Part shown: in pieces, positions 1,337 to 20,000 of the stretch | How the letters are laid out: the number at the start of each line of letters is the position of its first letter | Position numbering within the stretch: position 1 is the first letter of the stretch | Origin: Candidatus Polarisedimenticolia bacterium | GTDB taxonomy: Bacteria > Acidobacteriota > Polarisedimenticolia > Gp22-AA2 > AA152 | Assembly (NCBI GenBank): GCA_035764505.1 | Contig: DASTZC010000146.1 | Location: 1-42,827, forward strand | DNA length: 42,827 nt | Reading direction: 5' to 3' | Notes under the pieces: model-generated | Told to the model about the DNA's origin: nothing | The model's input: only the letters and a program-made list of their open reading frames with translations | Databases searched by the model: none | Translations under genes and position numbers: made by a program

Positions 1337-2035
1337 TCAGACCGCCTGCATCCGACAGATCAGGTCCTGCCGCTCGGGGCCGGGATGGTGCAGGTCGGTG
1401 AGCGGATAGACGATGTGCTCTTCCTTGGCATTGTGCTCGCTGAGGAGCTCGATCAGATCGCCGCGCAGCGATTCGAGCTCGGCGACGCCCGGGATCGGCC
1501 AGCCAAGGACCGCCGCCATTCGATCGAGCAGCGACTCGATGATGCGATGCTCGTGTCGCATGACACCGGTGGGACCGCACTCACCCGAGTGCACCCTGCG
1601 CTCGAAGGCCGGGAACAGCACCTCCTCCTCCATGCGGATGTGATGCCGCAAGCCGGCGCTGAACTCCCGGAAGCGCTGCGCCGCCTCGTCCATCTTTCCT
1701 GACGCCAGCGCTTCTCCGTGGGCCGCCAGCAGCGAATCGAGGCGGTCGTGATCCCACTCCATGCAGGCCGCCGGGCTGACAGCTCTCCGATCGGAGGCCG
1801 CATGCCGTGTCAGAAGAACCGAGCTGCCTTCCGGTCCTTCCTCGAGGATGGACCATTCGTATTTCCCCGCCTGCTCCGACTGCAGCCGCTCCAGGACCTG
1901 CAGCCGCTCCCGACCGAGGATTAGAACCAGCTCTCCGCCTTCCGGAAGCAGCTTGAACTGCTCCAGGACGAGCGCCGGACGCCGCTCCGGCTCGATATTG
2001 CTCAAATTGATTGTGCTGCGGGTCACCTCGCTCAT
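1337..2035 (-). CDS. DUF2249 plus hemerythrin HHE-domain protein
   Basis: This is a 232-residue cytoplasmic protein. Residues about 8-75 resemble DUF2249, ending in the usual 'YEWSILEEGPE'-type segment. Residues about 88-225 form a hemerythrin-type four-helix bundle with the di-iron ligand pattern: DHD near the start, HHIRMEEE, RHEHR and EHNAKEEH. Such proteins bind oxygen or nitric oxide, or help repair iron-sulfur centres under nitrosative stress. A longer frame exists upstream, but I chose the ATG at 2035 because a strong AGGAGG-type ribosome site lies just before it and DUF2249 begins just after. An Fnr/Dnr-type palindrome lies about 100 bp upstream. That fits a role with the NnrS-like genes further on, though the link is inference. 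Confidence 0.9.
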   Translation of the reverse strand: MSEVTRSTINLSNIEPERRPALVLEQFKLLPEGGELVLILGRERLQVLERLQSEQAGKYEWSILEEGPEGSSVLLTRHAASDRRAVSPAACMEWDHDRLDSLLAAHGEALASGKMDEAAQRFREFSAGLRHHIRMEEEVLFPAFERRVHSGECGPTGVMRHEHRIIESLLDRMAAVLGWPIPGVAELESLRGDLIELLSEHNAKEEHIVYPLTDLHHPGPERQDLICRMQAV

Positions 2036-2129
2036 GGTCGCCTTCCTCCTTCGAGATTCGGGGAAAACTACCGCGAGCCGGGGCGGCCGTGTATGTCCCC
2101 CGTCATAATTCCACTCCCTGCCCTCGGAC

Positions 2130-2141
2130 TGATCTGGATCA
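2130..2141 (-). promoter_or_regulatory. Candidate Fnr/Dnr-type operator upstream of the hemerythrin gene
   Basis: The site reads TGATctggATCA, a perfect two-fold match to the TGAT-N4-ATCA core recognised by Fnr- and Dnr-type regulators. Its centre is 100 bp upstream of the chosen hemerythrin start. A matching site lies beside the Crp/Fnr-family gene at 7127-7138. Binding is inferred, not shown. Confidence 0.45.
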
Positions 2142-2228
2142 TAGGAGCCGGGATACGAAGGTCCTATGTTGCCCCGCGTCACGCCCTTTCCGCGGCCCGG
2201 TCCTGCCCAAGGGATGTATCGGCGCCTC

Positions 2229-3500
2229 CTAGAAACCGAGCGTCAGCTGCACGTAGCCCCAGTCGGAGGCGTCATCTCCACGGGTCGACTCGGCGAAGCG
2301 CCCCGGCATGAAGCGGCTGACTCCGATCTCCACCTTCGCCTTCTCCAGCCAGTCATAGCGGTAGAGGAGATCCACCTCGTCGCCGACGTCGTCGCCCGAC
2401 GCTCCGGTCGGATCGAATCCGAGGACGTTCCCCGAGGCATCCTGCCAGGGCCCGAAGCGCGACTCGAGGCGGAAGCGGTGCGCCTTCGCCAGGTAGAAAT
2501 GCTTTCCGTGGCCAAAGGAGATCCCCGCATAGGGGCTGTCGATGTTGCGCCACCCTTCGTAGTCGATGTAGCCGTAGAGGGGATGGTTGGTGGGGAAGAA
2601 ATTGAAGAACTGGTTCTGCTCGCCGTCGGTGTTGTCCTGGTCGCCGGTGGCGTAGTCGTAGCCCGCGAAAGCCCGCAGCTTCTTCGAGCTTCCCCAGGTC
2701 CAGCCGATTTGCGTTGCCGCCGCATTCGCGTCGAGATCGTCTCCGTGGAACTCGCCGCGCTCGAGCACCGCTTCCACCACGAAATCGAAGCCGCCGAAGC
2801 GATCCTTCACCCGGCCCCCGAGCGCGTAGACTTTCGAGGGCCCCAGGATCCCCGTTTCGCCAGCAACTTCGATCCGATCCGAGAACCCCAGGGCGTAACC
2901 CTCGTACTCGCCGCCCGGGCGCGGCCGCGTCTGCGTGTAGACTCCGAACAGGTCGCTGCCGTTGGTCGCGCCGGCCGAGACCCGGTTGGAGATCTCGGCC
3001 CACAACCCGTCCGCGGTGAAGCGCTCGCTCCCCCAGCGCACCCGGATGCCGTCGAACGATCGACCGACATTGTTCCAGTTGTAGTTGCCGATGAGCCGGT
3101 GCTCGCCGTAGAACCACTCCTGCCGGCCCACTGAGAATGAGAGCCCCTTGACGCCGAGGTTCTTCGCCTCCAGGTAGCCCTGGTGGATGTCGAGGTTCTT
3201 CTCGTTGGAGGCAGTGCTCGCCTCCTCGCCCCAGACGCGGGAGTCCTGCGCCTGCACGAAGACGCGGAAGTTGTCCTGGATTAGCGCTTCCACCCCGATG
3301 CGGAGCCGCATGAAGACCTGGCTCATCCGGTCGTCGGCGTCGTCGATGAGGTCCTGGTTGTCGCGCCATTCGGGACGCACCCGGGCTTCGCCGCTGATCT
3401 TCCATTGGACCGGCTTCTTCTCCTCTTCCTGGGCGGTAATTCCTGAAGGCAGCCAGAGGCTTGCAATCAGTCCGGCGAGCAGGATTCGCGTGATCCTCAT
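2229..3500 (-). CDS. Alginate-export-type outer-membrane beta-barrel protein
   Basis: The product has 423 residues with a clear signal peptide (MRITRILLAGLIASLW, cleavage near the Ala at 23). The mature part is rich in alternating aromatic and charged strands, as in an outer-membrane barrel, and ends in a terminal Phe (YVQLTLGF), the usual assembly signal. Segments such as 'SRVWGEE', 'GRQEWFYGEHRLIGNYNW' and 'ISFGHGKHFYLAKAHRFR' resemble the alginate export (AlgE-like) family. In many phyla that family covers porins of unknown substrate found near respiratory genes, so an alginate role is not implied. A GAGGAG ribosome site precedes the ATG. The gene stands between the hemerythrin gene and the Ca2+-ATPase with clear gaps, so it is probably its own transcript. 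Confidence 0.8.
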   Translation of the reverse strand: MRITRILLAGLIASLWLPSGITAQEEEKKPVQWKISGEARVRPEWRDNQDLIDDADDRMSQVFMRLRIGVEALIQDNFRVFVQAQDSRVWGEEASTASNEKNLDIHQGYLEAKNLGVKGLSFSVGRQEWFYGEHRLIGNYNWNNVGRSFDGIRVRWGSERFTADGLWAEISNRVSAGATNGSDLFGVYTQTRPRPGGEYEGYALGFSDRIEVAGETGILGPSKVYALGGRVKDRFGGFDFVVEAVLERGEFHGDDLDANAAATQIGWTWGSSKKLRAFAGYDYATGDQDNTDGEQNQFFNFFPTNHPLYGYIDYEGWRNIDSPYAGISFGHGKHFYLAKAHRFRLESRFGPWQDASGNVLGFDPTGASGDDVGDEVDLLYRYDWLEKAKVEIGVSRFMPGRFAESTRGDDASDWGYVQLTLGF

Positions 3501-3614
3501 CGTCTCCTCGGAGGCAGTTCATTTCGTTGGGTCGGTCGGCGCGGCGTCAGGCCGGGAGGCTCCCCGGCGGGCTGCATCGTAAAACCGGAGGCGCATCCCA
3601 GGGGATGACGCCGA

Positions 3615-6311
3615 TCATGTAAGCCGCACGGGGAGTCCCGGGAGCCTGGTGTCGCGCTCCCCGAAGCCCCATTTGCCCGCCTCGACGACCGGCACGATGG
3701 TGGCTGCCATGAGCAGGGCCACCGCCCAATCCTCATGAGTCAGCGGGAAGCCCCCGAAAGAGCGGGACAGGCCGGGAACCGTCACCACCATGAACAGCAG
3801 CAGCAGCTCCCACAGGACGGCGAGGTTGAGCCAGAGATTGCCGAAGGGAGAGCGCAGCACCGGACGGAGCGGGGACCGGAAGCAATAGGCCTTGAAGAAC
3901 TCCATCAGGACCAGCGAGACGAAGGTCAGCGTGCGCGCCTCCGGGAGGCTGCGCCCCCCCGCCAGGGCCCACGCCATGAGTCCCAGATTCGCCGTCGCCG
4001 ACCAGGCTCCTCCCAGGAGCATCAGGCTGACCGCGCCGCGCGAGAAGATCCCCGTCTTCGGGTCGCGCGGGGGCCGGCGCATCACGCAGGGATCGGACGG
4101 TTCCGCCGCCAGGGCCAGCGCCGGCAGGCCGTCGGTGGCCAGATTCACGTAGAGGATCTGCACCGCCGTCAACGGCATCGGAAATCCGAGCACGGCCGCG
4201 GCGCCCATGAGGCCGATCTCCCCGATGTTCGAGGTGAAGAGGTAGGTCAGGTACTTGCGAGTGTTGTCGAAGATGCCCCGCCCCTCCTCGACCGCCGCCA
4301 CGATGGAGGCGAAGTTGTCGTCGATGAGGGTCACGTCGGCGGCTTCGCGCGAGACGTCGGTGCCGTTGATGCCCATGGCCACGCCGACGTCGGCCCTCTT
4401 CAGCGCCGGCGCATCGTTGATTCCGTCGCCGGTCATGGCCACCACGTGGCCGCGCCGCTGCAGCGCCTCGACCACGCGCAGCTTCTGCGCAGGAAGCATC
4501 CGCGCGTAGACTTCGATCACCTCGACCTGGTCCTCCAGCTCCTCACGGCTCAGCAGCTCCACCTCCGCTCCGGTGGCCAGCCTTCCCGATTCGAGGAGAC
4601 CGAGCTCGCCGCCAACCGCCCTGGCGGTCAGCGGATGATCGCCGGTCACCATGACGACGCGGATCCCGGCATCGCGGCAGGTTCGTACGGCGGATTTCGC
4701 CTCCGGACGCGGCGGGTCGATCATCGCGGCGAGACCCAGGAAGGTCATGCCGTGCTCGGCATCTTCGAGCCGCGTCCCTTTCTTGCGCGCCAGCGCGAGG
4801 ACGCGCAGCCCTTCCGCCGCCATGGCGTGGGCGATTTTCAGGATCGACTCGACCCCCTCGGGGTCCAGAGCCCGCTCCCCTTCTCCGGCGAGCCAGGCCG
4901 TGCAGCCGTGCAGGACGACTTCCGGCGCTCCCTTGGAGAAGGCCTCCGGGCCGGCGGGGCCGCGGTGCAGGGTGGTCATGCGGCGCGACTCGGAAGTGAA
5001 TGGAATCTCCCCAACGCGAGGCAGACCTGCTTCGAGATCGGAGGGAGCGAGGCCCGCCTTCATGGCTGCAACGACGAGAGCTCCTTCCGTGGGATCGCCC
5101 CGCACGCACCAGCGGCCGTCCTGGCCCCGGTACATCCGCGCGTCCGAGGCGAGGACGCCCGCCCGCAGCACCTCGTTGACAGCTTCCGGCAGGCTCGCGA
5201 CAGAAGACCCGCCGCAACGGAAATCTCCCACCGGCTCGAAGCCGCTGCCGGTCACGTCCAGCATCTCGCCGGCGGCGAAGATACGGCGGACGGTCATCTC
5301 GTCCTGGGTCAGCGTCCCCGTCTTGTCGGCGCAGATGACGGAGACGCAGCCCAGAGTCTCCACGATGGAGAGGCGGCGCATCAGGGCGTGCCGCCTGGCC
5401 ATGCGCTTGAGACCCATCGCCAGGGAGATGGTCAGCACCGCCGGCAGGGCTTCCGGGACGATGGCCACCGCCAGGGCGATCCCGAAGACGAGGGTGGCGA
5501 GCAGCGGTGCGCCCTGGAAGACCCCGAAAGCCGCCACCAGCATCACCACGGCGAGCCCCGCCCAGGCGAGGATGCGGGCCAGCCGGTCCAGATCCTTCTG
5601 CAGCGGCGTGCGCCCCGGCTCGATCCCGGTCAGCAGGGAAGCGATGCCGCCGAATTCGGTCGCCATGCCGGTGGCCACGACCACACCCTGGCCGCGCCCG
5701 GCAGCCGCCACGGTGCCGGCGTAGGCCATGCAGCGCCGCTCCGGCAGCGGCACGTCTTTGGCCCGAAGCGTCGCCGGCTCCTTGGCCACCGGGACCGATT
5801 CCCCGGTGAGAGCGGCTTCATCGACGCGCAGATTGGCGCCACGCGTCAGCCGGATATCCGCGGGGACCCGATCTCCCGCACGCAGGAGAACCAGATCTCC
5901 GGGAACCAGGTTGCGCGCGGCGATGTCGATTTCGGACCCGTCCCGCACCACGCGCGCCTTCGGGGCGGCCAGGCGGCGCAGCGCCCGCATCGCCCCCTCA
6001 GCACGGTACTCCTGGGCGAAGCCGAGCGTGGCGCTGAGCAGGACGATCACGGCGATCGCCGCGGCCTCGGACCGGTGGCCCAGAAGCAGCGACAGGAGCG
6101 CCGCACCCAGCAGGAGCAGGGTCAGCACGTTACGGAATTGCCGCAGAAGGAGCGCCCAAGCGGGATGGCGCACCGGGGCGGCCAGCTCGTTGCCCCCCTG
6201 CTCCCGCAGACGGCGCTCGGCCTCGGAGGCGGTGAGGCCTGCGGGACCCGAAGCCAGCCGCTCCAGCACTTCTTCCGGAGGCAGAGCGTGCCACACCGTT
6301 GTCTGCTTCAT
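3615..6311 (-). CDS. P-type Ca2+-transporting ATPase (P2A/P2B type)
   Basis: This is an 898-residue cation pump that exports Ca2+ or a similar cation at the expense of ATP. The N-terminal cation-ATPase domain is followed by the actuator domain with TGES at 169-172. PEALP lies in membrane helix 4 at 286-290, and the phosphorylated Asp is D329 in DKTGTLT. The KGAPE nucleotide motif and GDGINDAP follow, then four or more C-terminal membrane helices. Residues matching the SERCA Ca2+ sites are present: SNIGE in helix 5 and [10 protein letters not shown] in helix 6. PEALP instead of PEGLP is common in bacterial members. No good ribosome site precedes the ATG at 6311; a TTGACA lies only about 10 bp upstream, too close to serve as the promoter for this start, so the start is less certain than the identity. 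Confidence 0.93.
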
Positions 6312-6384
6312 TGATTCGATGTCAATGCAAGAGTCGATCCGGCAATGCGACGGGCACCGGCGCCGGTGGGCGGCGGGATCGGCG

Positions 6385-7080
6385 TCACTCCCCGGAGGGG
6401 ATCTCCTCGAGCTTGCGGCGATCCGGTATGCGGAAGAGACCTTCTTCGGTGAGGACGATCTGTTCCTTGTTCCATCGGCTCATAATGCGGATGGCGGTCT
6501 CCTGCGTCGTACCGACCAGGTCGGCAATCTCCTGCCGGCTGAGGTGCACGGGAATGACCACCGAGCCCGATTCCGCCCGGCCAAGGCGGTCCGCCAGGGT
6601 CAGGAACAGGCGCGCGACGCGGAACTCGACGCGCGAGGAGCGCTCCGAGAGCTTGCGGGTCAGCTCGATCATGCGGCGCGTCAGCCCCTGCAGGAGCCCG
6701 CGCGCCAGCACAGGGTTGGCGGCCAGGGTGGCGAAGAACTCCTGGCGCGGGATCGACAGGAGGGTGGTGGCTTCCAGGGTGACGGCGGTCGCCGGGAAGT
6801 CGCGCTCTTCGTAGGCGGCGATGGCTCCGACGGGATCGCCGGGGCCGAAAATCTCAAGGATGACGTCCCGTCCGTCGGGCGTCGCCTTCACGATCTTCAC
6901 ACGTCCTCCCAGGATGAAGTGGAACCAGAGGGCGGGATCTCCCTCGCGGAAGATCGTCTCGGCCTCCTCATACGACCTCATGCGGACCAGCGGGCGCAGG
7001 CTTTCCCGCTCGGCGGGCCTGAGCGACTGGAAGAGCGGGATGGCGGCCCACGGGATGGGCGGGCCCGTCGGATGCTCCAT
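6385..7080 (-). CDS. Crp/Fnr-family transcriptional regulator
   Basis: The product has 231 residues. An N-terminal cyclic-nucleotide-binding-type beta roll (about 15-130) is followed by a dimer helix and a C-terminal winged helix-turn-helix. The HTH reads LSRQEIADLVGTTQETAIR, with the Glu and Arg of the Fnr recognition helix kept but Ile in place of the usual Ser. There is no N-terminal Cys cluster, so it is not an oxygen-sensing Fnr with a 4Fe-4S centre; it is closer in layout to Dnr/NnrR-type NO regulators or Crp-like proteins. I chose the ATG at 7080 (GGAG upstream) over a frame that starts further up, because the cNMP domain begins shortly after. It is divergent from the radical SAM/NnrS-like operon, with a TGAT-N4-ATCA site between them, so it probably controls that operon. 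Confidence 0.92.
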   Translation of the reverse strand: MEHPTGPPIPWAAIPLFQSLRPAERESLRPLVRMRSYEEAETIFREGDPALWFHFILGGRVKIVKATPDGRDVILEIFGPGDPVGAIAAYEERDFPATAVTLEATTLLSIPRQEFFATLAANPVLARGLLQGLTRRMIELTRKLSERSSRVEFRVARLFLTLADRLGRAESGSVVIPVHLSRQEIADLVGTTQETAIRIMSRWNKEQIVLTEEGLFRIPDRRKLEEIPSGE

Positions 7081-7126
7081 TCGGGTCTCCGGAACGTCTC
7101 GCGAGGCAGATTTCTCGGCTGCGCGA

Positions 7127-7138
7127 TGATCCAGATCA
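7127..7138. promoter_or_regulatory. Candidate Fnr/Dnr-type operator between the regulator and the radical SAM operon
   Basis: The site reads TGATccagATCA, a perfect palindromic core. Its centre lies about 70 bp upstream of the radical SAM start, which would suit an activator bound near -41 with a leader of about 30 bases. It lies about 50 bp upstream of the regulator's own start on the other strand, so autoregulation is also possible. Confidence 0.5.
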
Positions 7139-7202
7139 TACACATCTTCAAGAGGTTGCCGCATGCTTACCCTCGATCCGCGCCGGCAAGGGGAGGATGT
7201 GG

Positions 7203-8327
7203 ATGGAAACCATGGTGCGAAGGATGGCGGGAGAGCCGGAGGGCGAGCCGAGGCTGCGGTTCGCCGCTGCGCCGCTGGTGGCAATCTGGGAGGTGACGCG
7301 AGCCTGCGATCTGGCCTGCATTCATTGCCGGGCTTCCGCGGTCCCGACCCGGGATCCGCAGGAGCTGACCACACAGCAGGGAGTCGACCTGCTGCGCGAG
7401 ATCAAGCGCTTCGGCAAACCGCTCCTCGTCTTCACCGGCGGCGACCCCCTGAAGCGCCCCGACCTGTTCGAGCTGATCGCCGCCGCGCGCGATCTGGGCC
7501 TGACCAGCTTCCTGAGTCCCAGCGGCACGCCGCTTTTGACCCATGCCGCCTTGCGCCAGGCCCGGCAGAGCGGGCTGACCGGGGTCTCGATCAGCCTCGA
7601 CGGCTCGACCGAGGCGCTGCACGACTCGATCCGCGGCGTGCCGGGGTCGTTCCGCTGGTGCATCGACGGTGCGGCCGCCGCCGTAGGGTTGCGCCTTGGG
7701 CTGCAGATCAACACCACCATCTCGCGCCGGAACCTGGAAGATCTGCCGGCCATGGCGGAGATGGTCGCGGCGCTGGAGGCGCGCCGCTGGACGCTGTTCC
7801 TGCTGGTGCCCACGGGACGGGCGCTCGCCTCGCACCAGATCTCGCCCCAGGAGTGCGAGCGGGTCTTCGAGTGGCTGGCCGAGATCGCTCCCCACTCCCG
7901 CTTCCGGATCAAGACGACGGAGGGTCCCCATTTCCGGCGCGTCGCCCTGCAGCGGGGCCTGGGCGCCGAAGGGTTGGGATCGCGCGGCGGCCGGTTCGTC
8001 TCCAGCATGAGCGACGGCTCGGGCTTCGTCTTCATCTCGGCCCGCGGTGAGATCTTTCCGAGCGGCTTTCTCCCGATGCCGGCCGGCAACGTGAAGCGCG
8101 ACTCGCTGGTGCGGGTCTACCGGGAGCACCCTCTCTTCCTGGCGCTGCGCGATTCCGATCGGCTCAAGGGGCGCTGCGGGCGCTGCGAGTTCCGCCGTAT
8201 CTGCGGCGGATCGCGGGCCCGGGCCTACGCCGCCACCGGCGATTACCTGGAAGAAGACCCCGCCTGCGCCTACCAACCGCCGCGCGGCACCGCGCCATCC
8301 GATGGTGCCATCCGCTGCACCGCATGA
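7203..8327 (+). CDS. Radical SAM/SPASM protein, NirJ/AhbD-like
   Basis: This is a 374-residue radical SAM enzyme. The SAM-binding 4Fe-4S motif CDLACIHC spans residues 35-42, followed by FTGGDPL (the GGE-type motif) and a TIM-barrel core. The C-terminal segment CGRCEFRRICGG...C is a SPASM/twitch-type auxiliary cluster motif. The closest groups I know are the NirJ/AhbD heme-modifying enzymes and a related uncharacterised radical SAM/SPASM family often found near denitrification genes, so a heme or peptide-modifying role is a guess. The ATG at 7197 abuts the AGGGGAGG ribosome site; the one at 7203 has normal spacing and is preferred. It is the first gene of a probable operon with the two NnrS-like genes, 52 bp before the next. 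Confidence 0.88.
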   Translation: METMVRRMAGEPEGEPRLRFAAAPLVAIWEVTRACDLACIHCRASAVPTRDPQELTTQQGVDLLREIKRFGKPLLVFTGGDPLKRPDLFELIAAARDLGLTSFLSPSGTPLLTHAALRQARQSGLTGVSISLDGSTEALHDSIRGVPGSFRWCIDGAAAAVGLRLGLQINTTISRRNLEDLPAMAEMVAALEARRWTLFLLVPTGRALASHQISPQECERVFEWLAEIAPHSRFRIKTTEGPHFRRVALQRGLGAEGLGSRGGRFVSSMSDGSGFVFISARGEIFPSGFLPMPAGNVKRDSLVRVYREHPLFLALRDSDRLKGRCGRCEFRRICGGSRARAYAATGDYLEEDPACAYQPPRGTAPSDGAIRCTA

Positions 8328-8379: not shown

Positions 8380-10353
8380 ATGTTGATCGATCCGAAGATG
8401 ACGGTCGCCGAGATTTTGAGCGTCTGCCCCGCGGCCCGGGCGCCGCTCGCCACGCTGGGGCTGGATGCCTGCTGCGGCGGGAAGCACCCTCTGGAGTTCG
8501 CCTGCCGTGCCCATGGAGTGCCGGTGGAGACCGCGCTGGCAGCGATCGAGCGCGCCGCTTCCGCCGCGTCCACCCCCGGCATCGACCCTTCGATGAGCGT
8601 GCGTGAGGTGCTTGCGAAGTTTCCGGCAACCGTCGTGGTCTTCGAGCGCCACGGCCTGATGGGATGCGGCGGAGCGGCCGGTCCGGCGGAGCCGCTCGGG
8701 TGGTTCGCCAAGGTCCATCATGTCGACCCCGACACGCTCCTGCTGGAGCTGCGTGAGGCGGCCGCTTCGCCGGTCCCCGCGCCGGAGAGGACGGCGACGA
8801 AATCGGCGCAGGCGGCGGTAAACGCCTCGCAGGCCGACGGCCACGAGAACCTCTATCGCCGGTTCCTCAAGGCAGCCTTCCTGTTCACGTTCACCGGCGG
8901 CGCGACGCTGGGGGCGTGGGCCCTGATCGACATGGCGCTGCGCGGCAGGCTGGGAGGGCTGGGGCGCGGCATCATCCAGGTGCATGGCCACTATCAGCTC
9001 TTCGGTTGGGTGGCGCTGTTCGTCGTGGGGATCGCCTACCACATCCTGCCGCGCATGACCGGCATCCCGCTTCCCTCCTACCGGGCTGCTTCGCTTTCCT
9101 TCGTGCTCCTCGTCGGCGGGACGATCCTGCGCACAGCGCAGGCGCTCGACCCGTCGGAGCTGCGCACGGGGCTGCTGGCCACCGGCGCCCTGGCCGAGCT
9201 GGCCGGCTGCGCCCTGTTCGCCTGGACCATCGCGCGGATCCTGCGCGCGCAGGCGGGAGCGTGGCAGCCGTATCAGCATTACCTGCTCCTGGGCACCGGC
9301 TGGCTGATCGTCTCGTCGATCCTGAACCTGGCCCACGTCACCTACCTCGCTGTCCGCAGCGCGGCGGAGGTGCCTCCTCATCTGAACCTTCCTTTCCTGA
9401 CCGTCTTCCTGGTCGGCTTCGTAATCTCCTGGATCCTCGGGGTCTCGCTGCGGACGCTGCCGGTCTTCATGGGACTGAAGGCGAATCCCCGGCTGGCCGC
9501 GGCGCTGCCGATCCCGCTGGCGGCGTCGACCGCACTTCTGGCCGTGGGGGAAGGGATCTATCTGGCCGATGGCTCCGTCGCCGGGCGAATCCTCTTCGGG
9601 TGCGGCGGCCTCGGGCTCGCCGCGGCCTTCCTGCTTTTCGTGCGGGCGGTGGGAATCCTGGGGGCTTCGGGCGAGACGGAGCCGGGTCTCGACCGCCGCT
9701 ACGAGAAGTTCATCCGCCTCGGCTATGCCTGGCTGGCCATCTCGGCCCTGATGCTGGCGGCCTTCTCGCTGCTGGCGCTGGCGGGATACGGCATGGACCA
9801 TGCCCTGGTGGGCGCCTATCGCCATGCCCTGACGGTCGGGTTCATCACCACCATCATGATCGGCATGGCGGCACGCATCGTGCCGGTTTTCCGCGGGGTG
9901 GGCCTGCACTCGCCGCTGCTGCTGGAAGCTACCTTCTGGCTGCTGGCCGCCGGGAACCTGATCCGCGTCCTGTTCCAGTCACTCTCCGCCGCCTACGGCC
10001 CGACGGCCCTTCGCATCGCCGGCCTCTCCGGGATCCTGGAGCTGGCGGCGCTTCTCCTGTTCGGCTATAACCTCTGGCGGACGCTCGATGCCGCGACGGT
10101 CGAGACGCCGAAAGTCTCATGGCTCCCGCCCGTGGCGGCGGCGACGAAGGTCGGGGATCTTCTCCTCGCTTATCCCGGGCTCCTGCCGGTGTTCGTGAGC
10201 CACGGCTTCACGGCGCTCGCCAATCCCGTCATGCGCCGGACCGTGGCGAGGCAGGTCAGCCTCGGACAGGCCTGTCGCATGCACGGCGTCGACCTGGAGC
10301 GTTTCCTGAAGGAGCTTTCGGAGACCGCCGGGCGGCTGCGCGCGCAATCCTGA
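8380..10353 (+). CDS. NnrS-like membrane protein with N-terminal DUF542 and DUF1858-type domains
   Basis: The 657-residue protein combines small soluble domains with a membrane core. Residues 1-58 match the N-terminal domain of ScdA/RIC iron-sulfur repair proteins, including CCGGKH at 31-36. Residues about 68-127 are a DUF1858-like repeat with GCGG at 95-98. About twelve membrane helices (roughly 165-590) follow, with His-bearing helices such as VHGHYQLFGW, HYLLLGTGW and YRHALTVGF, as in NnrS and subunit I of heme-copper oxidases. The last 60 residues are another DUF1858-like repeat without the Cys motif. NnrS proteins relieve NO stress on metal centres. The ATG at 8380 follows AAGGAG with 6-base spacing; a longer frame would overlap the upstream gene. 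The next gene begins 8 bp downstream. Confidence 0.87.
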   Translation: MLIDPKMTVAEILSVCPAARAPLATLGLDACCGGKHPLEFACRAHGVPVETALAAIERAASAASTPGIDPSMSVREVLAKFPATVVVFERHGLMGCGGAAGPAEPLGWFAKVHHVDPDTLLLELREAAASPVPAPERTATKSAQAAVNASQADGHENLYRRFLKAAFLFTFTGGATLGAWALIDMALRGRLGGLGRGIIQVHGHYQLFGWVALFVVGIAYHILPRMTGIPLPSYRAASLSFVLLVGGTILRTAQALDPSELRTGLLATGALAELAGCALFAWTIARILRAQAGAWQPYQHYLLLGTGWLIVSSILNLAHVTYLAVRSAAEVPPHLNLPFLTVFLVGFVISWILGVSLRTLPVFMGLKANPRLAAALPIPLAASTALLAVGEGIYLADGSVAGRILFGCGGLGLAAAFLLFVRAVGILGASGETEPGLDRRYEKFIRLGYAWLAISALMLAAFSLLALAGYGMDHALVGAYRHALTVGFITTIMIGMAARIVPVFRGVGLHSPLLLEATFWLLAAGNLIRVLFQSLSAAYGPTALRIAGLSGILELAALLLFGYNLWRTLDAATVETPKVSWLPPVAAATKVGDLLLAYPGLLPVFVSHGFTALANPVMRRTVARQVSLGQACRMHGVDLERFLKELSETAGRLRAQS

Positions 10354-10361
10354 AGGAGCCG

Positions 10362-11693
10362 ATGAGTCCTGCGGAAACGCCGCCGGCGCGCGACCGGATC
10401 CCTCCGCGCCTGACTCCGGTGATCTATTTCCTCATGGCACACGCGGCGCTGCTCGCCGCCTTCGCCCTCGCCGTCGCGCACCCGGCCGAGGTGAGCGGCT
10501 ACTTCTACCAGCCCCGCATGATCGCGCTGGTCCATCTCATCACCCTTGGATGGATTACCGCCTCGATCCTGGGGTCCCTCTACGTGATCGGCCCGATGGC
10601 GCTGCGCAGCCCCATGCCGGAGGGGCGCGCCGATCTCATCGTGGCGCTCCTCTACGCCATCGGGCTGTGCGGGATGGTCTCGCACTTCTGGCTCAACGCT
10701 TACGGAGGTGCCGGCTGGGCGGCGCTTCTCGTCGTCGGCGCCGCGCTGCACGTCGGATTTCGGGCGCTGCGCAGCGTGCGGCAGGCGCCGGTGCAGCCGG
10801 CCGTCAAGCTCCATCTGCTCCTGGCGCTGGTCAACCTGGCACTGGCGGGCAGCCTCGGCATCCTTCTCGCCTTCGACAAGGCGCACCCTTTCCTACCGGC
10901 GATCGAGCTGGGCAACGTGATGGCGCACGCCCATCTCGCTGCCATCGGCTGGGTCGGAATGATGGTGATGGGGACGGGACTGCGCATGCTCCCGATGGTG
11001 CTGCCGGCGGCGATGCCCGCGGGGAAGCTGTCGATTCCCGGCGCGCTGCTCACCGAAGCGGGAATCCTCGGAGTGTCGGGCATCCTCATGCTCGGCAGCG
11101 CGGCGCTGGGAGGGTTCGCCCTGCTGGTTGCCGCCGGATTCGCCGTCTTCCTGGGTCAGGCGATCTGGATGCGCCGGCACCTCCGGCCCGCTCCGGCCGG
11201 GCTGCCGCGCCCCGATCTCGGCGTGTGGCACGTGCTGCAGGCGCTTGTCTATCTGTTACTGGCGGTCGCTCTGGGAATCTTCCTGGCTTTCACGCCGGAG
11301 TCGGATCTCACCTACCGGCTGGCTCCGGTGTACGGGGTGGCAGGCTTGCTGGGGTTTTACGGACAGCTGGTGCTGGGGATCGAATCCCGGATCCTTCCCA
11401 TGTTCGCGGCCTATTACGCCAATCGAAGAGCCTGCGGCGCCGGGCCGGTGATCCAGCCGCACGAGATGCCGCGACGCGGCCTGCAGACGGCGGTCTTCGC
11501 CTTGTGGAGCGCGGGCTTGCCGGTTCTGGCGGCGGGAATGTCCCTGGCGCGGCCCGGTCTTTGCCGCACCGGCGCCTCGTTGCTGCTCCTTGCGGCCCTC
11601 GCGCTGGCGATCAACCAGGCCCGCGTCCTGGCGCATCTGTTCCGGGGAAAAGCATCCCGGCCGCTTAGCGAGACGGCGGGCGGGTTGTCATGA
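10362..11693 (+). CDS. NnrS/heme-copper-oxidase subunit I-like membrane protein
   Basis: The 443-residue protein is almost wholly membrane-embedded, with about twelve helices. Repeated His-Gly-Trp helices (LVHLITLGW, MAHAHLAAIGW) resemble those of the upstream protein, so the two are probably paralogous folds. The family is annotated variously as NnrS-like or as cbb3-type subunit I-like. I see no convincing full CuB ligand set, so activity as an NO or O2 reductase is not claimed; heme binding is likely. The ATG at 10362 is preceded by AAGGAG inside the stop region of the upstream gene, showing tight coupling. It is the last gene of the operon and is followed by the tandem dispersed repeats. 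Confidence 0.85.
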   Translation: MSPAETPPARDRIPPRLTPVIYFLMAHAALLAAFALAVAHPAEVSGYFYQPRMIALVHLITLGWITASILGSLYVIGPMALRSPMPEGRADLIVALLYAIGLCGMVSHFWLNAYGGAGWAALLVVGAALHVGFRALRSVRQAPVQPAVKLHLLLALVNLALAGSLGILLAFDKAHPFLPAIELGNVMAHAHLAAIGWVGMMVMGTGLRMLPMVLPAAMPAGKLSIPGALLTEAGILGVSGILMLGSAALGGFALLVAAGFAVFLGQAIWMRRHLRPAPAGLPRPDLGVWHVLQALVYLLLAVALGIFLAFTPESDLTYRLAPVYGVAGLLGFYGQLVLGIESRILPMFAAYYANRRACGAGPVIQPHEMPRRGLQTAVFALWSAGLPVLAAGMSLARPGLCRTGASLLLLAALALAINQARVLAHLFRGKASRPLSETAGGLS

Positions 11694-11735: not shown

Positions 11736-11820
11736 TTACCCTTACGGATTGAGCCGGGCCCGGAGTCTTGGCTTCCCCATGATCAAGTGTCGGCCGTTGA
11801 CGCGCGGCCGCTCCTCGTCG
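11736..11820 (+). repeat. Dispersed hairpin repeat, copy 1 (truncated)
   Basis: This is the first unit of an 89-bp tandem pair between two convergent operons. It shares with copy 2 a left flank (from TTACC through GGAGTCTTGGCTTCCCCATG) and the first half of the repeat core (AAGTGYCGGCCGTTGACGCG), including a GCGGCCGC block. The right half of the core is largely lost. Confidence 0.8.
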
Positions 11821-11823
11821 TGA

Positions 11824-11935
11824 GCTTACCTAGCGGATTGGGCCGGGTCCGGAGTCTTGGCTTCCCCATGATCAAGTGCCGGCCGTTGACGCGCGGCCGC
11901 TGTTTGCCGCCGCGTCCAACGGTGCCCCTGCCTAC
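11824..11935 (+). repeat. Dispersed hairpin repeat, copy 2 (full core)
   Basis: This unit has the full core, which also occurs at 34.5 and 34.9 kb. The arms CCGTTGACGCG (11883-11893) and CGCGTCCAACGG (11911-11922) pair over 11 bp with one bulged base and a 17-base loop; an alternative small hairpin is CGGCCG-N8-CGGCCG. It may serve as a terminator between the convergent operons. It has no coding sense: the frames that cross it are shadows. Confidence 0.82.
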
Positions 11936-11943
11936 TGAGAGCT

Positions 11944-13350
11944 TCACTGTGTCTTGTCCGTTCCGTAGCGCTCTTTGTAGAAGGCGTCGATGCGGGCCCG
12001 ATCCTCGGGCGACATTCCCTTCTTCCAGGCATGCTCGGGTGAATCGAGCACCGCCTTGATCACCTTCGCCACCTCCGGATCGCCGTGGCCCACCTCCTGC
12101 GCCTTGGGGAGGAAGTCGAAGTAGAAGCGCTCCGCCACCTCGAAGAAGCCGTGCCACTGGGTGTAGTCGGGTCCCTGCATCGAGACTCCCATGCGCGCCC
12201 GCCGCCCCTCGTGGTGCCACAGCCGGTAGAAGCTCCACTCCAGCTCGTCGTCGAAGGGGGTCGGGGTGAGGTGATGTCCGGCCCGCAGCGCGTCCATCAC
12301 CCGCTGCGCCGGGAAGGCGAACTTGTCGTTCCACATCGTCACGGCACCGTCGTACTGAGTGTAGAAAGCGCTCACGAAGTCGGGGGCGTGGCAGTTCTTG
12401 CAGACGTCGGCCATCGCTTCCCGCTTCCCTTCCCAGTTCTCCAGCTTCTTGCTCACCACCGGCCGCAGGGTCCAGGAGATGCGCGCCCCCACGTCGTGCG
12501 TCACCTTCTGGTTGGGCGTCGCCGACATGTGGCAGGTGGCGCAGGTGGGCGCCGCGGTGTAGTCCTGGCCGACCACCCAGTGCTCCGCGTCGAGGTTCAT
12601 CTCGGCGGTGCGCGTGTAGAAGGCGATACCGTGCTTCGACTCGTCATAGATCTCGATCTGCGGGTGGTCCGGGCCCATGTGGCACTTGCCGCACACCTGC
12701 GGCTGGCGCGCCATCGCCTTGCTGAAGACATGCCGCGAATGACAGGCGGAGCAGGAGCCGTTCGAGCCGTCCAGGTTCACCCGCCCGATTCCGGTGTTCG
12801 GCCAGGTGTTCGGATCGAGCATCGGCTTGCCGTTCTTGTCCTTGCGGATGCCGCCGCCGGAGTCCTTCAGGAAGGCCACGGTGGATCCGTGGCACTGTTT
12901 GCAGCCGTTGGCGGCGATGATCGGCCCCTCGATCACCTCGCCCATCACGTTGTCGAGGCTGCCGATGAAGCCCGCCGCCTTGGAATGGTGCGACGCCATG
13001 AACTCCTTGGTGATGTCCTGGTGGCAGCCGCCGCAGTCCTTGGGGCTCACGACGGTCGCGATCAGCTTCCCCTCGTGGCGGAAGGCGTCGGCGTCGGTCT
13101 CGTCGGCCCGGTGGCACTCGTAGCAGCCCACTCCGAGCGTGGCGTGCTTGCTGTCGCGCCACTGCGCCGCGATGACCGGCGTCTTGTCCTCGTGGCAGTC
13201 GTAGCATTTCCTGCTGTCGGCCCCCATCACCGGCTCCGGCCTCGGCTGCACCCGCTGCTTGCCTCCCTCCACCCAGGCCACGACGAGCAGCGCGCCCAGG
13301 AAGAGGAACGACAGGGCCGCCACGAGCTTCCGCTTGAAATCCAGATTCAT
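11944..13350 (-). CDS. Octaheme c-type cytochrome, hydroxylamine oxidoreductase (HAO)-like
   Basis: The 468-residue protein has eight CxxCH heme sites, starting at residues 49, 76, 106, 150, 200, 220, 270 and 317. The N-terminal segment 7-27 is a membrane anchor or signal. Family signatures include GRVNLDGSNGSCSACH, GPDHPQIEIYDESKHG and, after the last heme, HEGRRAR...PDYxxWHG. This is the HAO/hydrazine dehydrogenase/octaheme reductase group, which interconverts hydroxylamine, NO, nitrite or hydrazine outside the cytoplasm. A Tyr at 396 lies where, from memory, the P460 cross-linking Tyr may fall; only an alignment can tell oxidative from reductive type. It starts 9 bp after the cytochrome b gene, with GAGGTG before the ATG, so it is probably the electron partner of the Rieske/cytochrome b pair. 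Confidence 0.9.
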   Translation of the reverse strand: MNLDFKRKLVAALSFLFLGALLVVAWVEGGKQRVQPRPEPVMGADSRKCYDCHEDKTPVIAAQWRDSKHATLGVGCYECHRADETDADAFRHEGKLIATVVSPKDCGGCHQDITKEFMASHHSKAAGFIGSLDNVMGEVIEGPIIAANGCKQCHGSTVAFLKDSGGGIRKDKNGKPMLDPNTWPNTGIGRVNLDGSNGSCSACHSRHVFSKAMARQPQVCGKCHMGPDHPQIEIYDESKHGIAFYTRTAEMNLDAEHWVVGQDYTAAPTCATCHMSATPNQKVTHDVGARISWTLRPVVSKKLENWEGKREAMADVCKNCHAPDFVSAFYTQYDGAVTMWNDKFAFPAQRVMDALRAGHHLTPTPFDDELEWSFYRLWHHEGRRARMGVSMQGPDYTQWHGFFEVAERFYFDFLPKAQEVGHGDPEVAKVIKAVLDSPEHAWKKGMSPEDRARIDAFYKERYGTDKTQ

Positions 13351-13359
13351 GCATGCACC

Positions 13360-14478
13360 TCAGTGAGTGGCGACGGCTTCCCAGATCGTCAGGACGACGA
13401 GGGCGCACACCGCTGCCGTCCCGATCCAGACGGAAAGCTCGCTGCCCGGACGGCGCCGGCGGATCGCCGCGTCGATGAAGGGCCAGATCAGGGTCAAGAA
13501 TCCCACGAAGCCGATGGAGAGGACGGCCCAGGTCAGCCCCGTCAGCTTCAGCCAGCGGAAGGTCCAGAAGAAGTACCACTCCGGCTTGATGTGCGCCGGC
13601 GTGACGAGCGGGTTGGCCTTCTCCGCCAATTCTGTCGGGAAGATGACCGTCAGGCAGGTCAGCAGAAAGGCCAGGGAGAGGCCGATGATGATCTCGGTCA
13701 TGATGTGATCGGGAAAAAACGGGAAGGTCTTCTTGCCCGCCGGGGCCTTGAGCCCCTTCGCCTCGAACTCGAACTCGGTCACCCCGTGCAGCCGCATCAG
13801 CATCAGGTGCGCGCCGATCAGCAGCGTCATCAGCGTCGGCAGGACGCCGATGTGCAGGATGAAGAAGCGCGACAGCGTCTCCTTGCCCACCACGTCGCCG
13901 CCGCGCAGCATTCGCCCCAGCAGCGGGCCTATCCCGGGCACCGCCTCGGTAAGGTTCGAAGCGACCGTGGCTCCCCAGTACGAAAGCTGCTCGTAGACCA
14001 GCGAGTAGCCGGTGAAGCCGAAGAACAGCGTCACGCCCAGCAGGGCGACGCCGATCATCCAGTTGGCCTCGCGCGGCTTGCGGTAAGCGCCGGTGAAGAA
14101 GACGCGCATCATGTGCAGGATCACCGCCGCGATCATCAGGTTCGAGGACCAGCGGTGCAGGCTGCGAACGAACCATCCGAAGGGGACGACGTCCTTGACG
14201 TGCTGCACCGACTCGTAGGCGCGGGCCGGATCGGGGACGTAGTAGAAGGACAGGAGGATTCCGGTCACCGCCTGGAGCGCGAACAGAAGTGCCGGCGTCC
14301 CGCCAAGACACCACCACCAGTGCTTCAGGTGATTGGGGACCGGCTCGTTGGAAAGGCCGCGCAGCGCCTCCCAATCGACCGGAAAGCGATCCTGCAGCCA
14401 GCGGCCCCAGGAAGTCGTCGGCGGCAGGGTTCCGGCGGCCGGCGCCTCTGCGGAATCTGAAGAGCCGTGACGGCTCAC
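13360..14478 (-). CDS. Cytochrome b (b6-type) fused to subunit IV
   Basis: This 372-residue integral membrane protein is the quinol-oxidising core of a bc/b6f-type complex. The four heme b ligands appear as H108/H122 and H209/H224. The 14-residue gap in the second pair is the b6 pattern, not the mitochondrial one. C57 in WCLGG aligns with the Cys of plant and Bacillus b6 proteins that holds the extra heme c(n). The C-terminal part is subunit IV-like, with PEWYFF of the Qo site, and is fused instead of separate. The start is GTG at 14478, overlapping the Rieske stop by 4 bases (GTGA), a sign of translational coupling. The multiheme cytochrome follows 9 bp downstream. No separate cytochrome f or c1 gene is visible, so the octaheme protein may take that place. 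Confidence 0.94.
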   Translation of the reverse strand: MSRHGSSDSAEAPAAGTLPPTTSWGRWLQDRFPVDWEALRGLSNEPVPNHLKHWWWCLGGTPALLFALQAVTGILLSFYYVPDPARAYESVQHVKDVVPFGWFVRSLHRWSSNLMIAAVILHMMRVFFTGAYRKPREANWMIGVALLGVTLFFGFTGYSLVYEQLSYWGATVASNLTEAVPGIGPLLGRMLRGGDVVGKETLSRFFILHIGVLPTLMTLLIGAHLMLMRLHGVTEFEFEAKGLKAPAGKKTFPFFPDHIMTEIIIGLSLAFLLTCLTVIFPTELAEKANPLVTPAHIKPEWYFFWTFRWLKLTGLTWAVLSIGFVGFLTLIWPFIDAAIRRRRPGSELSVWIGTAAVCALVVLTIWEAVATH

Positions 14479-14945
14479 AGCGTGATGATCTCCTCGTATT
14501 CCAGGAAAAGGTTCTCACCCACCTGCGCCACCTCGAAGCGCTTCAGGTGCTTCCCTTCGTCCGCCGGCGGGCCGGAGACGGCCGTGCCGGTGTTGTCGAA
14601 GACGCCGTTGTGGCAAGGGCAGACGAAGCGGGAGGCCGCGGTGTCGTAGTGGACCTTACAGCCGAGGTGGGGACAGACATCGGAGAGCGCCACGATTCCT
14701 TCGCCGGTGTCGGTCACCAGCGCGGTATTGCCGTCGGGAAGCTCGAAGGGAAGCCCCTTGCCGGGGGCGAGATCGGAGGCGGGCGCGAGAAAGATGCGGC
14801 GCCGGCGGCGCAGTCCTTTCAGCGGGAAGAGATACCGCAAGGCGATTCCGCCCAGTGCCGCGGCGACGGAAGCCAAGCCTGTCACCATGGCGGCCCGGAC
14901 GAGAAAGCCTCGACGAGTCACGGAAGTTCCGGGTCTTCCGTCCAT
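14475..14945 (-). CDS. Rieske 2Fe-2S protein of a bc-type complex
   Basis: The 156-residue protein starts with a Tat-type signal anchor (RR at 11-12, then a hydrophobic helix to about 40). The Rieske domain follows, with CPHLGC at 91-96 and CPCHNG at 109-114. C91, H93, C109 and H112 should bind the cluster, and C96 and C111 should form the disulfide. It passes electrons from quinol at cytochrome b to a c-type cytochrome. A GAGGAG ribosome site lies before the ATG. It is the first gene of the operon Rieske, cytochrome b, octaheme cytochrome. The length is typical for short b6f/Bacillus-type Rieske subunits. Confidence 0.95.
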   Translation of the reverse strand: MDGRPGTSVTRRGFLVRAAMVTGLASVAAALGGIALRYLFPLKGLRRRRRIFLAPASDLAPGKGLPFELPDGNTALVTDTGEGIVALSDVCPHLGCKVHYDTAASRFVCPCHNGVFDNTGTAVSGPPADEGKHLKRFEVAQVGENLFLEYEEIITL

Positions 14946-17022: not shown

Positions 17023-20000
17023 TCAATTGGGGTCGAATTCCGGTTGCCGGCCCTCTCCGATGACGCCCGCAGCGAGGCTTGCCGGGGGGATTGCTCCCCG
17101 TTTCATCTCGAAGTTCCATTTCCAAATCTCGTATATGGGAGGATAAACGAGAAGCTCCAGGAGGAAGCTGGTCACGAGTCCGCCAATCATGGGAGCCACG
17201 ACCCGCTTCATCATGTCGGAGCCGGTTCCCATCGACCACATGATCGGCATCAACCCCATGAAGGCTGCGGCAACGGTCATCATCTTGGGCCTGATCCGCT
17301 TCACGGCCCCGTGGACGATCGCTTCCCTCAGATCTTCCCTCGTCCTCATCCTTCCAGACCGGACGGCGTCGGCATAGGAGAGATCCAGGAACAGGAGCAT
17401 GAAAACTCCGGTCTCCGCGTCGAGCCCCATCAGAGCGATCATCCCGACCCAGGTGGCGATGGAGACGTTGTAACCCAGCGCGACGAGGAGCCATACGGCG
17501 CCTATGATCGAGAAGGGGACCGCCAGCAGGACGATGCAGGCCTTCACGCCCGATTTCGTGTTCATGTACAGAAGGACGAAGATGAGGAACAGCGTGATGG
17601 GAACGACCACCTTCAGGCGCTCCCGCACCCGCAGCATGTTCTCGTACTGGCCGCTCCATTGCAGAGAGTACCCTGTGGGGAGTGCCACGTTCTTCGCGAC
17701 CGCCAGCTTCGCATCACGGACGAAGCCGCCGATGTCCCGTCCCGAGAGGTCCACGTAGACGTATCCTGCCAGCAATCCGTTCTCATCGCGGATCATGGCG
17801 GGGCCGGTATTCATCCGGATGTCGGCGATCTGCGCCATCGGGATCTGCGCTCCCGAGGGGGTCGGGACGAGGACCCGCTCGAGGGCGGAGAGACTGTCGC
17901 GCATCTCCCGCGCGTAGCGCACGCTGACGGAGTAGCGCTCGCGCCCTTCCACGGTCGTCGTGACGCTCTCGCCGCCGATCGCCGACTGCAGGACTCTCTG
18001 GGCATCCTCAACGCTGAGGCCGTAGCGGGCGAGGTCGCCGCGGCGCAGGTCGAAATCGAGGAAGTAGCCGCCGGCCGTGCGCTCGGCATAGACGCTGCGA
18101 GCGCCCGGCACCGTCCGGACGGCTGCCTCCACCTCGATGCCGACCTTCTCGATCACCGCCAAATCCGCGCCGTAGATCTTGATTCCGACCGGCGTCCGGA
18201 TCCCGGTGGAGAGCATGTCGGTGCGGTTCTTGATCGGCATCGTCCAGGCGTTGGTCACCCCGGGGAAGCGCAGCTTCGCGTCCATCTCGGTGACGAGCTC
18301 CTCGCGCGTCATGCGATCCCACCAGACGTGCCGGAGGGGCGCCTGCAGGAACTCGGGCCAGCCGGAGTAGAAGCGCTCAACCTTGCGCCATTGATCGTGC
18401 GGTTTCAGGAGAACGGTCGTCTCCAGCATCGAGAAAGGGGCCGGGTCGGTCGACGACTCGGCGCGCCCGGCCTTCCCGAACACACGGATCACCTCCGGCA
18501 CCTCCTTCAGGATCTGGTCCGACATCTGCACCAGCTTCTCCGCTTCGGTCACCGAGATTCCGGGCAGTGTCGTGGGCATGTAGAGCAACACCCCTTCGTC
18601 CAGCGGAGGCATGAACTCGGAGCCGAGGCTCAGGTAGGCGGGGACGGCGCTCAGAACCAGCAGACCAGCCACCACCAGAGTCGTGCCCGGGAAGCGCAGG
18701 ACAAGCCGGCAAGCCGGCTCGTAGACACGGAAGAGGACCCGGCTGATGGGATGCTTTTCCTCCGGGTAATAGGTTCCCACCAGCGACTGGTGCGTGATCC
18801 AGGAGAGCCAGCGCGGGCGGAACTGGATTCGATCCATGCGGGTGAACAGCATCCGCATCGCCGGATCCAGCGTGATGGCAAGGACGGCGGCAATGGCCAT
18901 CGCCAGGTTCTTGGTATAGGCCAACGGCTTGAACAGACGCCCTTCCTGGTCCACGAGCGTGAAGATCGGCATGAAGGCCACGGCGATTACCAGCAGGGAG
19001 AAGAAGACCGACGGCCCGACTTCCTTGAGAGCACTCAAGCGGACCGCGTGGAAGTCCCCCACCCGCCCTCCGGCTTCCCAGAGCTGCAGCTTCTTGTAGG
19101 CGTTCTCCACCTCGACAATGGCGCCGTCCACCAGGACCCCGATGGAAATGGCGATGCCGGCGAGCGACATGATGTTCGAGGAGAGGCCCATCAGGTGCAT
19201 GGGAATGAAGGCCAGGACCACCGAGACGGGAATCGTGACGATCGGGACGATGGCCGATGGGAGGTGCCACAGGAAGAACAGGATCACCAGGCTGACGATG
19301 ATCATCTCCAGCAGCAGCTCCTTGCGGAGGTTGTCGATCGATCGCCGGATCAGGTCCGAGCGGTCGTAGGTGGTCACCAGCTCCACCCCGGCCGGGAGGG
19401 AGGATCGGACGCTGTCGATCTTCTCCTTCACCCGGTGGATCACGTTCAAGGCGTTCTCGCCGTAGCGCATTACGACGATGCCGCCCACGGTGTCTCCCAG
19501 GCCGTCCAGGTCCACCACGCCGCGGCGGATATCGGGACCAATGGTCACCCGTGCCACGTCGCGCACCAGAACCGGCGTTCCCTTGCCGTCGTCGCCCACG
19601 ACGATCGCCTCCAGATCGGCGATGGAGCGCGCATAGCCCCGGCCTCGCACCATGTACTCTGCGCCCGCGAACTCCACGACGCGGCCGCCGACGTCGTTGT
19701 TCCCCTGACGGATCGCCTCCAGGACCCGCGTCAAGGGGATCCTCAGGGCCACCAGGGAGTCGGGGTTGACGTTGATCTGGTATTGCTTCTGGAATCCTCC
19801 GATGGAGGCCACCTCCGCCACCCCTGGAACGCTCTGGAGCCAGTAGCGCAGGGTCCAGTCCTGGAAGGAGCGCAGCTCCGCGAGATCGTGCCTGCCCGTG
19901 CGATCCACGAGGGCGTATTGGTACACCCAGCCAACACCCGTGGCGTCGGGTCCCAGCTCCGTCCGCACTCCCTCCGGGAGGCGCGGGAGGATCTTGCTCA

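Follow-up and report, generated by a model that had tools for sequence, protein, structure and literature searches.

What do two short, mirrored palindromes do in a cluster of genes around a Crp/Fnr regulator? We asked this of a 42,827-nucleotide contig (DASTZC010000146.1; the window, meaning the whole stretch analysed) from a Candidatus Polarisedimenticolia bacterium of the phylum Acidobacteriota (assembly GCA_035764505.1). An earlier inspection of the window, hereafter the original prediction, had pointed out two TGAT-N4-ATCA sites, TGATCTGGATCA at 2130-2141, upstream of a DUF2249-hemerythrin gene, and TGATCCAGATCA at 7127-7138, between the regulator gene and a radical SAM operon. It had proposed from them a small regulon for nitric oxide (NO) or low oxygen. 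Both sites are present and are exact reverse complements of each other. Very probably they mark real control switches, with the operator refined to TATGAYSNNSRTCATA. As a whole, the best explanation, which we consider highly probable, is that the regulator encoded at 6385-7080, a Crp/Fnr protein, binds these sites as its operators and activates genes that fit the handling of NO. Computed directly were the conservation of the operator sequence, where it stands relative to promoter-like boxes, how it co-occurs with the regulator and which kinds of genes lie beside it.

A conserved operator in promoters near the regulator

The discovery set consisted of 47 neighbourhoods of regulator homologues, namely that of the window and 46 more, found in 43 further Acidobacteriota genomes. 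For gene calling, a codon-score script trained on ten genes of the window was applied to all genomes alike. Every six-base palindrome with a spacer of 0-10 was then counted in 415 promoter segments (up to 300 bp before predicted starts, about 55 kb) and in a background of 501 kb of coding DNA. The top palindrome of this unbiased count, TATGAC-N4-GTCATA, came from 29 loci, with 43 promoter sites at one mismatch or fewer against about 0.17 expected from coding DNA; ATGACN4GTCAT has 39 exact promoter matches. For the refined operator TATGAYSNNSRTCATA, the promoters hold 17, 44 and 66 sites at up to zero, one and two mismatches, and about 500 kb of coding DNA holds 0, 1 and 7. Permuted half-sites (400 of them) gave means of 0.04, 0.23 and 1.29 at the same thresholds and none reached TATGAYSNNSRTCATA; the best, with 14, 28 and 55, overlap the real word by swapped letters.

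Words known from other Crp/Fnr proteins are rare in the same promoters. The FNR/DNR-type TTGATN4ATCAA has no exact match and a single one when one mismatch is allowed (17 and 44 in the case of TATGAYSNNSRTCATA), the HcpR-type TTGACN4GTCAA also none and one, and the CRP-type TGTGAN6TCACA none and two. No TTGCG palindrome of the NnrR type is among the best 14 motifs listed by the unbiased search, TTGCGN4CGCAA not having been scanned by name. These counts bear on a view close to that of the original prediction, in which an ordinary FNR or DNR relative acts on TTGATN4ATCAA-like boxes in response to low oxygen or NO. The regulator does have the Crp/Fnr fold and a match to DNR (PDB 3dkw, E 1e-16), and the inner TGATC-N2-GATCA of the window's sites resembles FNR-type boxes. 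However, the near absence of the word from promoters, the lack of a conserved cysteine and the equivalog models, which score far below their cut-offs, make this view very unlikely. The likely recognition word is thus TATGAYSNNSRTCATA and not an FNR-like box.

In the window's whole 4.46-Mb genome, TATGAYSNNSRTCATA occurs at up to one mismatch in only two places, 2092-2107 and 7125-7140, both of them window promoters, and a reversed control pattern has no match. Two mismatches also admit 2128-2143, 3604-3619 and 13687 in the window. In 60 Markov shuffles of the window, no site appeared at up to one mismatch, and the mean at up to two was 0.33 (largest 2). The predicted operators are as follows.

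2092-2107, minus strand: operator TATGTCCCCCGTCATA, upstream of the DUF2249-hemerythrin gene and not noted in the original prediction; differs from the family operator at one base; TAGTTT as -10-like box with class II spacing
2128-2143, minus strand: second candidate operator ACTGATCTGGATCATA, containing 2130-2141; two mismatches; centre 36 bp from that of 2092-2107
3604-3619, minus strand: weaker candidate operator GATGACGCCGATCATG upstream of a porin gene; two mismatches; TACGAT begins 31 bases from its centre
7125-7140, plus strand: operator GATGATCCAGATCATA, containing 7127-7138, between the regulator and the radical SAM gene; 52 bp from the regulator start

Could such sites be chance products of codon usage, GATC-rich palindromes of which two fell in gaps? 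Most loose matches in the genome are indeed genic. Nevertheless, the refined word has two matches in 4.46 Mb, both in these promoters, its position is conserved in relatives and its spacing to a -10-like box is fixed, so that chance appears extremely improbable.

The core TGATN4ATCA is a poorer guide. The window contains three copies against a mean of 0.31 in dinucleotide shuffles, none of 100 shuffles reaching three. The original prediction had itself stated that a motif equally frequent inside genes would speak against it. The genome holds 78 copies, and 14 of the first 15 fetched and classified are genic, in loci that are 85% coding; by that test the core is therefore unspecific, too loose to show any promoter bias genome-wide. 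Near regulator homologues it is promoter-biased, with 8 exact copies in the promoters and 6 in the coding DNA. The exact 12-mer has three copies in the genome, the two window sites and a genic one on contig C215. Neither the core nor the 12-mer was kept as a yardstick, the latter occurring 54 times in the 44 regulator-positive genomes described below. Among 24 contexts of the 12-mer fetched from outside the window's order, most are genic and two, both in genome G267, belong to a 21-base tandem repeat. The third core copy of the window (17241-17252), within the large efflux-pump-like gene at 17023-20337, appears to be a chance match.

Position of the operator relative to the promoter

We then asked where the operator stands relative to the promoter. 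Across 71 site-gene pairs (70 distinct site-directions), a TANNNT box begins 30 bases downstream of the operator centre in 23 and at offset 31 in 6; the remaining offsets between 9 and 69 have 0-2 each. For sites with at most one mismatch, the box was found in 10 of 24 cases toward a single gene, in 2 of 24 away from the gene and in 16 of 40 in divergent gaps. A -10 hexamer at that distance places the operator at -41.5 relative to the transcription start. Crp/Fnr proteins at -41.5 touch RNA polymerase and activate, as known from work in Escherichia coli (class II). Because the -10-like box lies at a fixed distance, the operator would occupy the class II activator position, and this arrangement, centred at -41.5, likely reflects class II activation by a Crp/Fnr protein. 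The corresponding boxes of the window are these.

2065-2070, minus strand: -10-like box TAGTTT; hexamer begins 30 bases from the operator centre; predicted transcription start near 2058
7162-7167, plus strand: weak -10-like box CATGCT of the radical SAM operon; three of six letters match TATAAT; predicted start near 7174

The TAGTTT box has class II spacing to the 2092 operator but not to the 2130 site. The hemerythrin site in the activator position is therefore 2092-2107 rather than the one originally chosen, which is 36 bp further upstream; the operator containing it, 2128-2143, has no -10-like box at the class II distance and would sit at -77.5. On the radical SAM side of the 7125 operator, the CATGCT of the window is matched at equal offset by GATGCT and CATCCT in two relatives (NATNCT, weak but conserved).

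This geometry also bears on whether the 7125 site mainly serves autoregulation of the regulator gene rather than the radical SAM operon. The site lies 52 bp from the regulator start, and its centre is 56 and 52 bp from the extrapolated start in the two relatives; moreover, 12 of 65 operator neighbours are Crp/Fnr genes, and 10 of the 47 regulator genes, the window's included, are preceded by a site at up to one mismatch. Yet on the regulator side neither the window nor its two nearest relatives have a -10-like box, and the weak conserved NATNCT is on the radical SAM side. Autoregulation as the main role thus seems unlikely, and activation of the radical SAM operon is preferred.

Genes adjoining the operator

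The genes at and near the operators of the window are listed here, with their predicted roles.

1337-2035, minus strand: DUF2249-hemerythrin gene (PF01814, 70.4 bits; PF10006, 33.0 bits; both above cut-off), a predicted target
2229-3500, minus strand: alginate-export-type porin gene (PF13372, 161.5 bits), a possible target
6385-7080, minus strand: Crp/Fnr regulator gene (PF00027 and PF13545 above cut-off), encoding the proposed operator-binding protein; its homologues co-occur with the operator
7197-8327, plus strand: radical SAM/SPASM gene of the TIGR04053 family (442.3 bits, cut-off 395), first gene of the predicted target operon
8380-10353, plus strand: ScdA_N / DUF1858 / NnrS fusion gene (PF04405, PF08984 and PF05940 above cut-off)
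10362-11693, plus strand: open frame of a downstream membrane-protein gene, called NnrS-like in the original prediction; may in fact start at 10419; matches nothing in NCBIfam or Pfam at E <=0.001
11944-14945: operon of Rieske, cytochrome b and multihaem cytochrome c genes; no operator

For the Rieske operon, the best upstream match to the refined operator has five mismatches, in agreement with the original statement that it lacks a site.

What kinds of genes adjoin the operator across the loci? From 67 genes taken, two shorter than 60 residues were dropped, leaving 65. These include both members of divergent pairs, so that some are bystanders, and the genes of the window and of its relatives G006 and G011 were admitted at up to two mismatches. 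Hemerythrin domains are found in 18, cNMP/Crp domains in 12, ScdA_N in 8 and radical SAM in 7. Models of iron-sulfur repair proteins (RIC, YtfE) match 17 of the 65, and TIGR04053 matches 6 (E <=0.001). As controls, 65 genes were drawn from the 385 genes of the same loci; hemerythrin is absent from the 25 families listed for them and hence occurs there at most twice. The controls include five cNMP-domain and two NapB proteins, which indicates that the neighbourhoods themselves are nitrogen-rich. Denitrification genes also adjoin the operator: a quinol-type NO reductase gene (qNOR; E 5e-254 to PDB nitric oxide reductase chains) in one genome and a nitrous-oxide reductase gene (NosZ; TIGR04246, 781.8 bits, cut-off 625) in another are each directly beside an exact operator, and a NarK-like transporter (218.6 bits, below the cut-off of 311.7) is a further neighbour. 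By these gene assignments, the operator-adjoining genes are a predicted nitrogen-oxide regulon. In a haloarchaeon, DUF2249 proteins are also induced under denitrification (PMC11218638).

The regulator and its co-occurrence with the operator

The protein belongs to the Crp/Fnr superfamily, with PF00027 at 74.6 bits (cut-off 27.5) and PF13545 at 57.7 bits (cut-off 27.0). Its scores do not pass the cut-off of any NCBIfam family that it matches; the Crp/Fnr equivalog models are all far below, and the CRP model NF008732 gives 59.3 bits against a cut-off of 266. Other Crp/Fnr proteins are the nearest solved chains (best E 3e-24). Among the 47 homologues no cysteine is conserved at >=60%, which disfavours an FNR-type cluster, and no histidine reaches that level either. 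In most members the recognition helix has the sequence GTT(Q/I/L/V/M)ET.IR, and residue 180 (CRP numbering) is Gln in the window's regulator. Rodionov et al. (2005) tie residues 180 and 181 to two half-site bases (PMC1274295).

We then examined whether operator and regulator occur together in 396 genomes drawn from Acidobacteriota, taking a match at E <=1e-40 as presence of the regulator. It is present in 44 genomes of 21 families. Of these 44, 28 carry exact TATGACN4GTCATA, with 72 sites in all; of the remaining 352, 25 do, with 28 sites (Fisher p 2e-17). A reversed control pattern has no match in the 44. Within the 13 families that contain both kinds of genome, the exact operator is in 21 of 32 regulator-positive genomes against 2 of 36. 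Another Crp/Fnr paralogue of the same genomes might bind the operator, the adjacent regulator binding something else; indeed, the window's genome has two other weak Crp/Fnr homologues, on contigs C202 and C31. But the motif comes first in the neighbourhoods of this very regulator, and the co-occurrence holds within mixed families, which leaves the paralogue a very small chance. The sites are in all likelihood functional operators of this regulator.

A scan of a genome collection by peptide patterns yielded 25 loci, mostly with homologues about 30% identical and two above 40%. The operator is present at up to one mismatch in three of them (L079, L085, which yielded no gene calls, and L098). The last, an Omnitrophota contig outside the discovery set, encodes a 32% identical homologue and carries a perfect TATGATCCAGATCATA at 8595-8610, with the hexamer TAGACT at offset 30. 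The site precedes a gene of PAS-GGDEF appearance, and two hemerythrin-like genes come next (all by eye). The operator system may thus extend beyond Acidobacteriota.

Close relatives and half-site variation

Two genomes of the window's order, G006 and G011, encode regulators 80 and 76% identical to that of the window, and both have a TGATCYGGATCA site between the regulator and the radical SAM gene. In G006, a perfect ATGATCTGGATCAT stands before a porin - multihaem cytochrome pair. Further perfect copies precede a second radical SAM gene and a flavoprotein gene, the latter with Rieske-like (by eye) and cytochrome b genes after it. In G011, such a site lies between a second radical SAM gene and a porin gene. 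Behind the porin gene come a small open frame and a periplasmic nitrate reductase gene, truncated where the fetched sequence ends, which scores 596.7 bits with the NapA model (cut-off 904). The porin genes of two relatives are thus preceded by ATGATC-N2-GATCAT sites, which supports the 3604-3619 site of the window. In the three genomes together, ATGATCNNGATCAT is intergenic in 6 of 8 cases at zero mismatches and in 5 of 57 examined at one. Of the 12 G011 sites at up to one mismatch, 6 were examined, and a site on contig C154 of G011, called genic via an upstream start, was counted as intergenic, between the radical SAM and regulator genes.

The regulators of these three genomes, all with Gln-180, occur with mostly TATGATC-type sites. 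A simple half-site switch set by residue 180 was considered and rejected: nine loci with Ile, Leu or Val at that residue (L131, L136, L137, L138, L139, L141, L148, L160 and L164) also have at least one TC half. The pairing of Gln-180 with such sites is kept as an observation.

The multihaem cytochrome of G006 that is homologous to that of the window's Rieske operon (L046, 7434-8822) comes after the porin gene with the perfect ATGATCTGGATCAT.

Comparison with known systems

Among the papers listed by literature searches, one of them for the literal consensus, none was seen to describe this operator, most subscription papers lying outside these searches. The consensus search returned Rodionov et al. 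(2005) alone, where the operator in question is TTGACnnnnGTCAA (PMC1274295). That paper gives operators for HcpR (wyTTGACnnnnGTCAArw, Geobacter and relatives), for DNR (CTTGATnnnnATCAAG, Pseudomonas and beta-proteobacteria) and for NnrR (ctTTGcgnnnncgCAAag, alpha-proteobacteria, where it controls nir, nor, nos and nnrS genes), and none of the three as given there equals the operator found here (PMC1274295).

HcpR is similar in kind: it is a Crp/Fnr regulator of nitrogen-oxide genes with an inner TGAC-N4-GTCA core and a replaced Arg-180 in the recognition helix. However, A rather than T precedes TGAC here, with an outer T and an inner S (TATGACG), the HcpR word has no exact match in the promoters, and the neighbours here are hemerythrin/RIC, radical SAM, NnrS, NO reductase and NosZ genes. 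DNR resembles our case as a Crp/Fnr regulator whose targets include NO and N2O reductases; its operator differs, and the two proteins are distantly related (E 1e-16 against the best 3e-24 for other Crp/Fnr chains). The NnrR operator is unlike the one found here. In Thermus, DnrT, a CRP-like activator of nitrate respiration, has DUF2249 proteins among its targets, DrpA and DrpB depending on it for expression; unlike the window's protein, they are described without a hemerythrin domain and are proposed nitrate sensors (PMC6282519).

The E. coli CRP operator is TGTGATCTAGATCACA. The TATGATC-N2-GATCATA halves of the window differ from it at the second base alone, which is A here and not G; residue 180 is Gln here and Arg in CRP (PMC1274295).

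Weighing the evidence

Several observations weigh against the proposed reading. The degenerate letters Y and S of the operator were fixed after all sites, the window's included, had been viewed. Strict TATGACN4GTCATA has no exact match in the window's order, a lineage that uses ATGATC halves, so the link to the regulator there rests on the conserved position and on the genome's two matches. At up to one mismatch, the refined operator is missing from G006 and found once in G011. Most of the looser matches (ATGATCNNGATCAT, up to one mismatch) fall in coding DNA; for the window's genome the count is 32 of 35. The two-mismatch site at 13687 is genic as well. The -10-like box on the radical SAM side is weak. 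The exact operator is lacking in 16 of the 44 regulator-positive genomes, and 22 of the 25 collection loci have none at up to one mismatch. Finally, the window's genome gives no qNOR match and no close NapA; G006 and G011 give no qNOR match either, an empty answer that alone shows little. As a result, the NO link in the window's genome rests on the hemerythrin and NnrS-type genes, and its equipment looks like one for NO defence rather than for full denitrification.

With these points in view, the general idea of a small regulon comprising the hemerythrin gene, the regulator and the NnrS genes appears largely right, with corrections to the operator, to the hemerythrin site that matters most and to which way control runs. 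The hemerythrin and radical SAM/NnrS genes fit a Crp/Fnr regulon, whereas the regulator as its own target finds no support here. As for the signal, NO is suggested by the neighbouring genes only, and low oxygen has no support of its own, no cysteine or histidine being conserved at >=60%.

Predicted mechanism and its meaning

We propose that a dimer of the regulator recognises TATGAYSNNSRTCATA centred 41.5 bases before the transcription start. Bound at 7125-7140, it would switch on the radical SAM - ScdA_N/NnrS operon; bound at 2092-2107, it would switch on the DUF2249-hemerythrin gene, possibly with help from the second operator at 2128-2143. The porin gene would be switched on more weakly. 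The most likely inducing signal would be nitric oxide or a related nitrogen oxide, which, judging from the neighbouring genes, is a moderately probable assignment.

More broadly, we lean towards the proposal that in Acidobacteriota, and probably beyond, nitrogen-oxide respiration and NO defence are under the control of an undescribed subfamily of Crp/Fnr regulators. This subfamily would read TATGACG-N2-CGTCATA from -41.5 and sense its signal without a conserved Cys or His, the window's order having shifted to TATGATC halves along with the change of residue 180 from Ile/Leu/Val/Met to Gln. Acidobacteriota are abundant in soils. A defined operator predicts nitrogen-oxide-responsive genes in such genomes and offers a concrete binding target. 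It extends the Crp/Fnr code by one recognition word and links the TIGR04053 radical SAM family, a second radical SAM family and DUF2249-hemerythrin, all of unknown role, to NO defence.

Further observations

The second radical SAM family (NF045502-type in L240, the others by eye) repeatedly adjoins operator-like sites; the cases are these.

L240, 1711-2988
L234, 3261-3650
L138, 5221-6465
L145, 8596-9828
L163, 3999-5291

The copy of this family in the window's genome (L320) has no operator-like site. The radical SAM gene on contig C232 of G006 adjoins a perfect site, and a 76% identical copy in the window's genome (C257) has no good site before the gene, the best 14-base match having two mismatches.

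The 21-base tandem repeat of G267 (L251, 2986-3270; L252, 2848-3154) has TGATC-N2-GATCATC in nearly every unit. In the window, a direct repeat of 73 bases, 93% identical and with a spacing of 89, lies at 11740-11812 and 11829-11901, in the gap between the second NnrS-like gene and the multihaem cytochrome gene.

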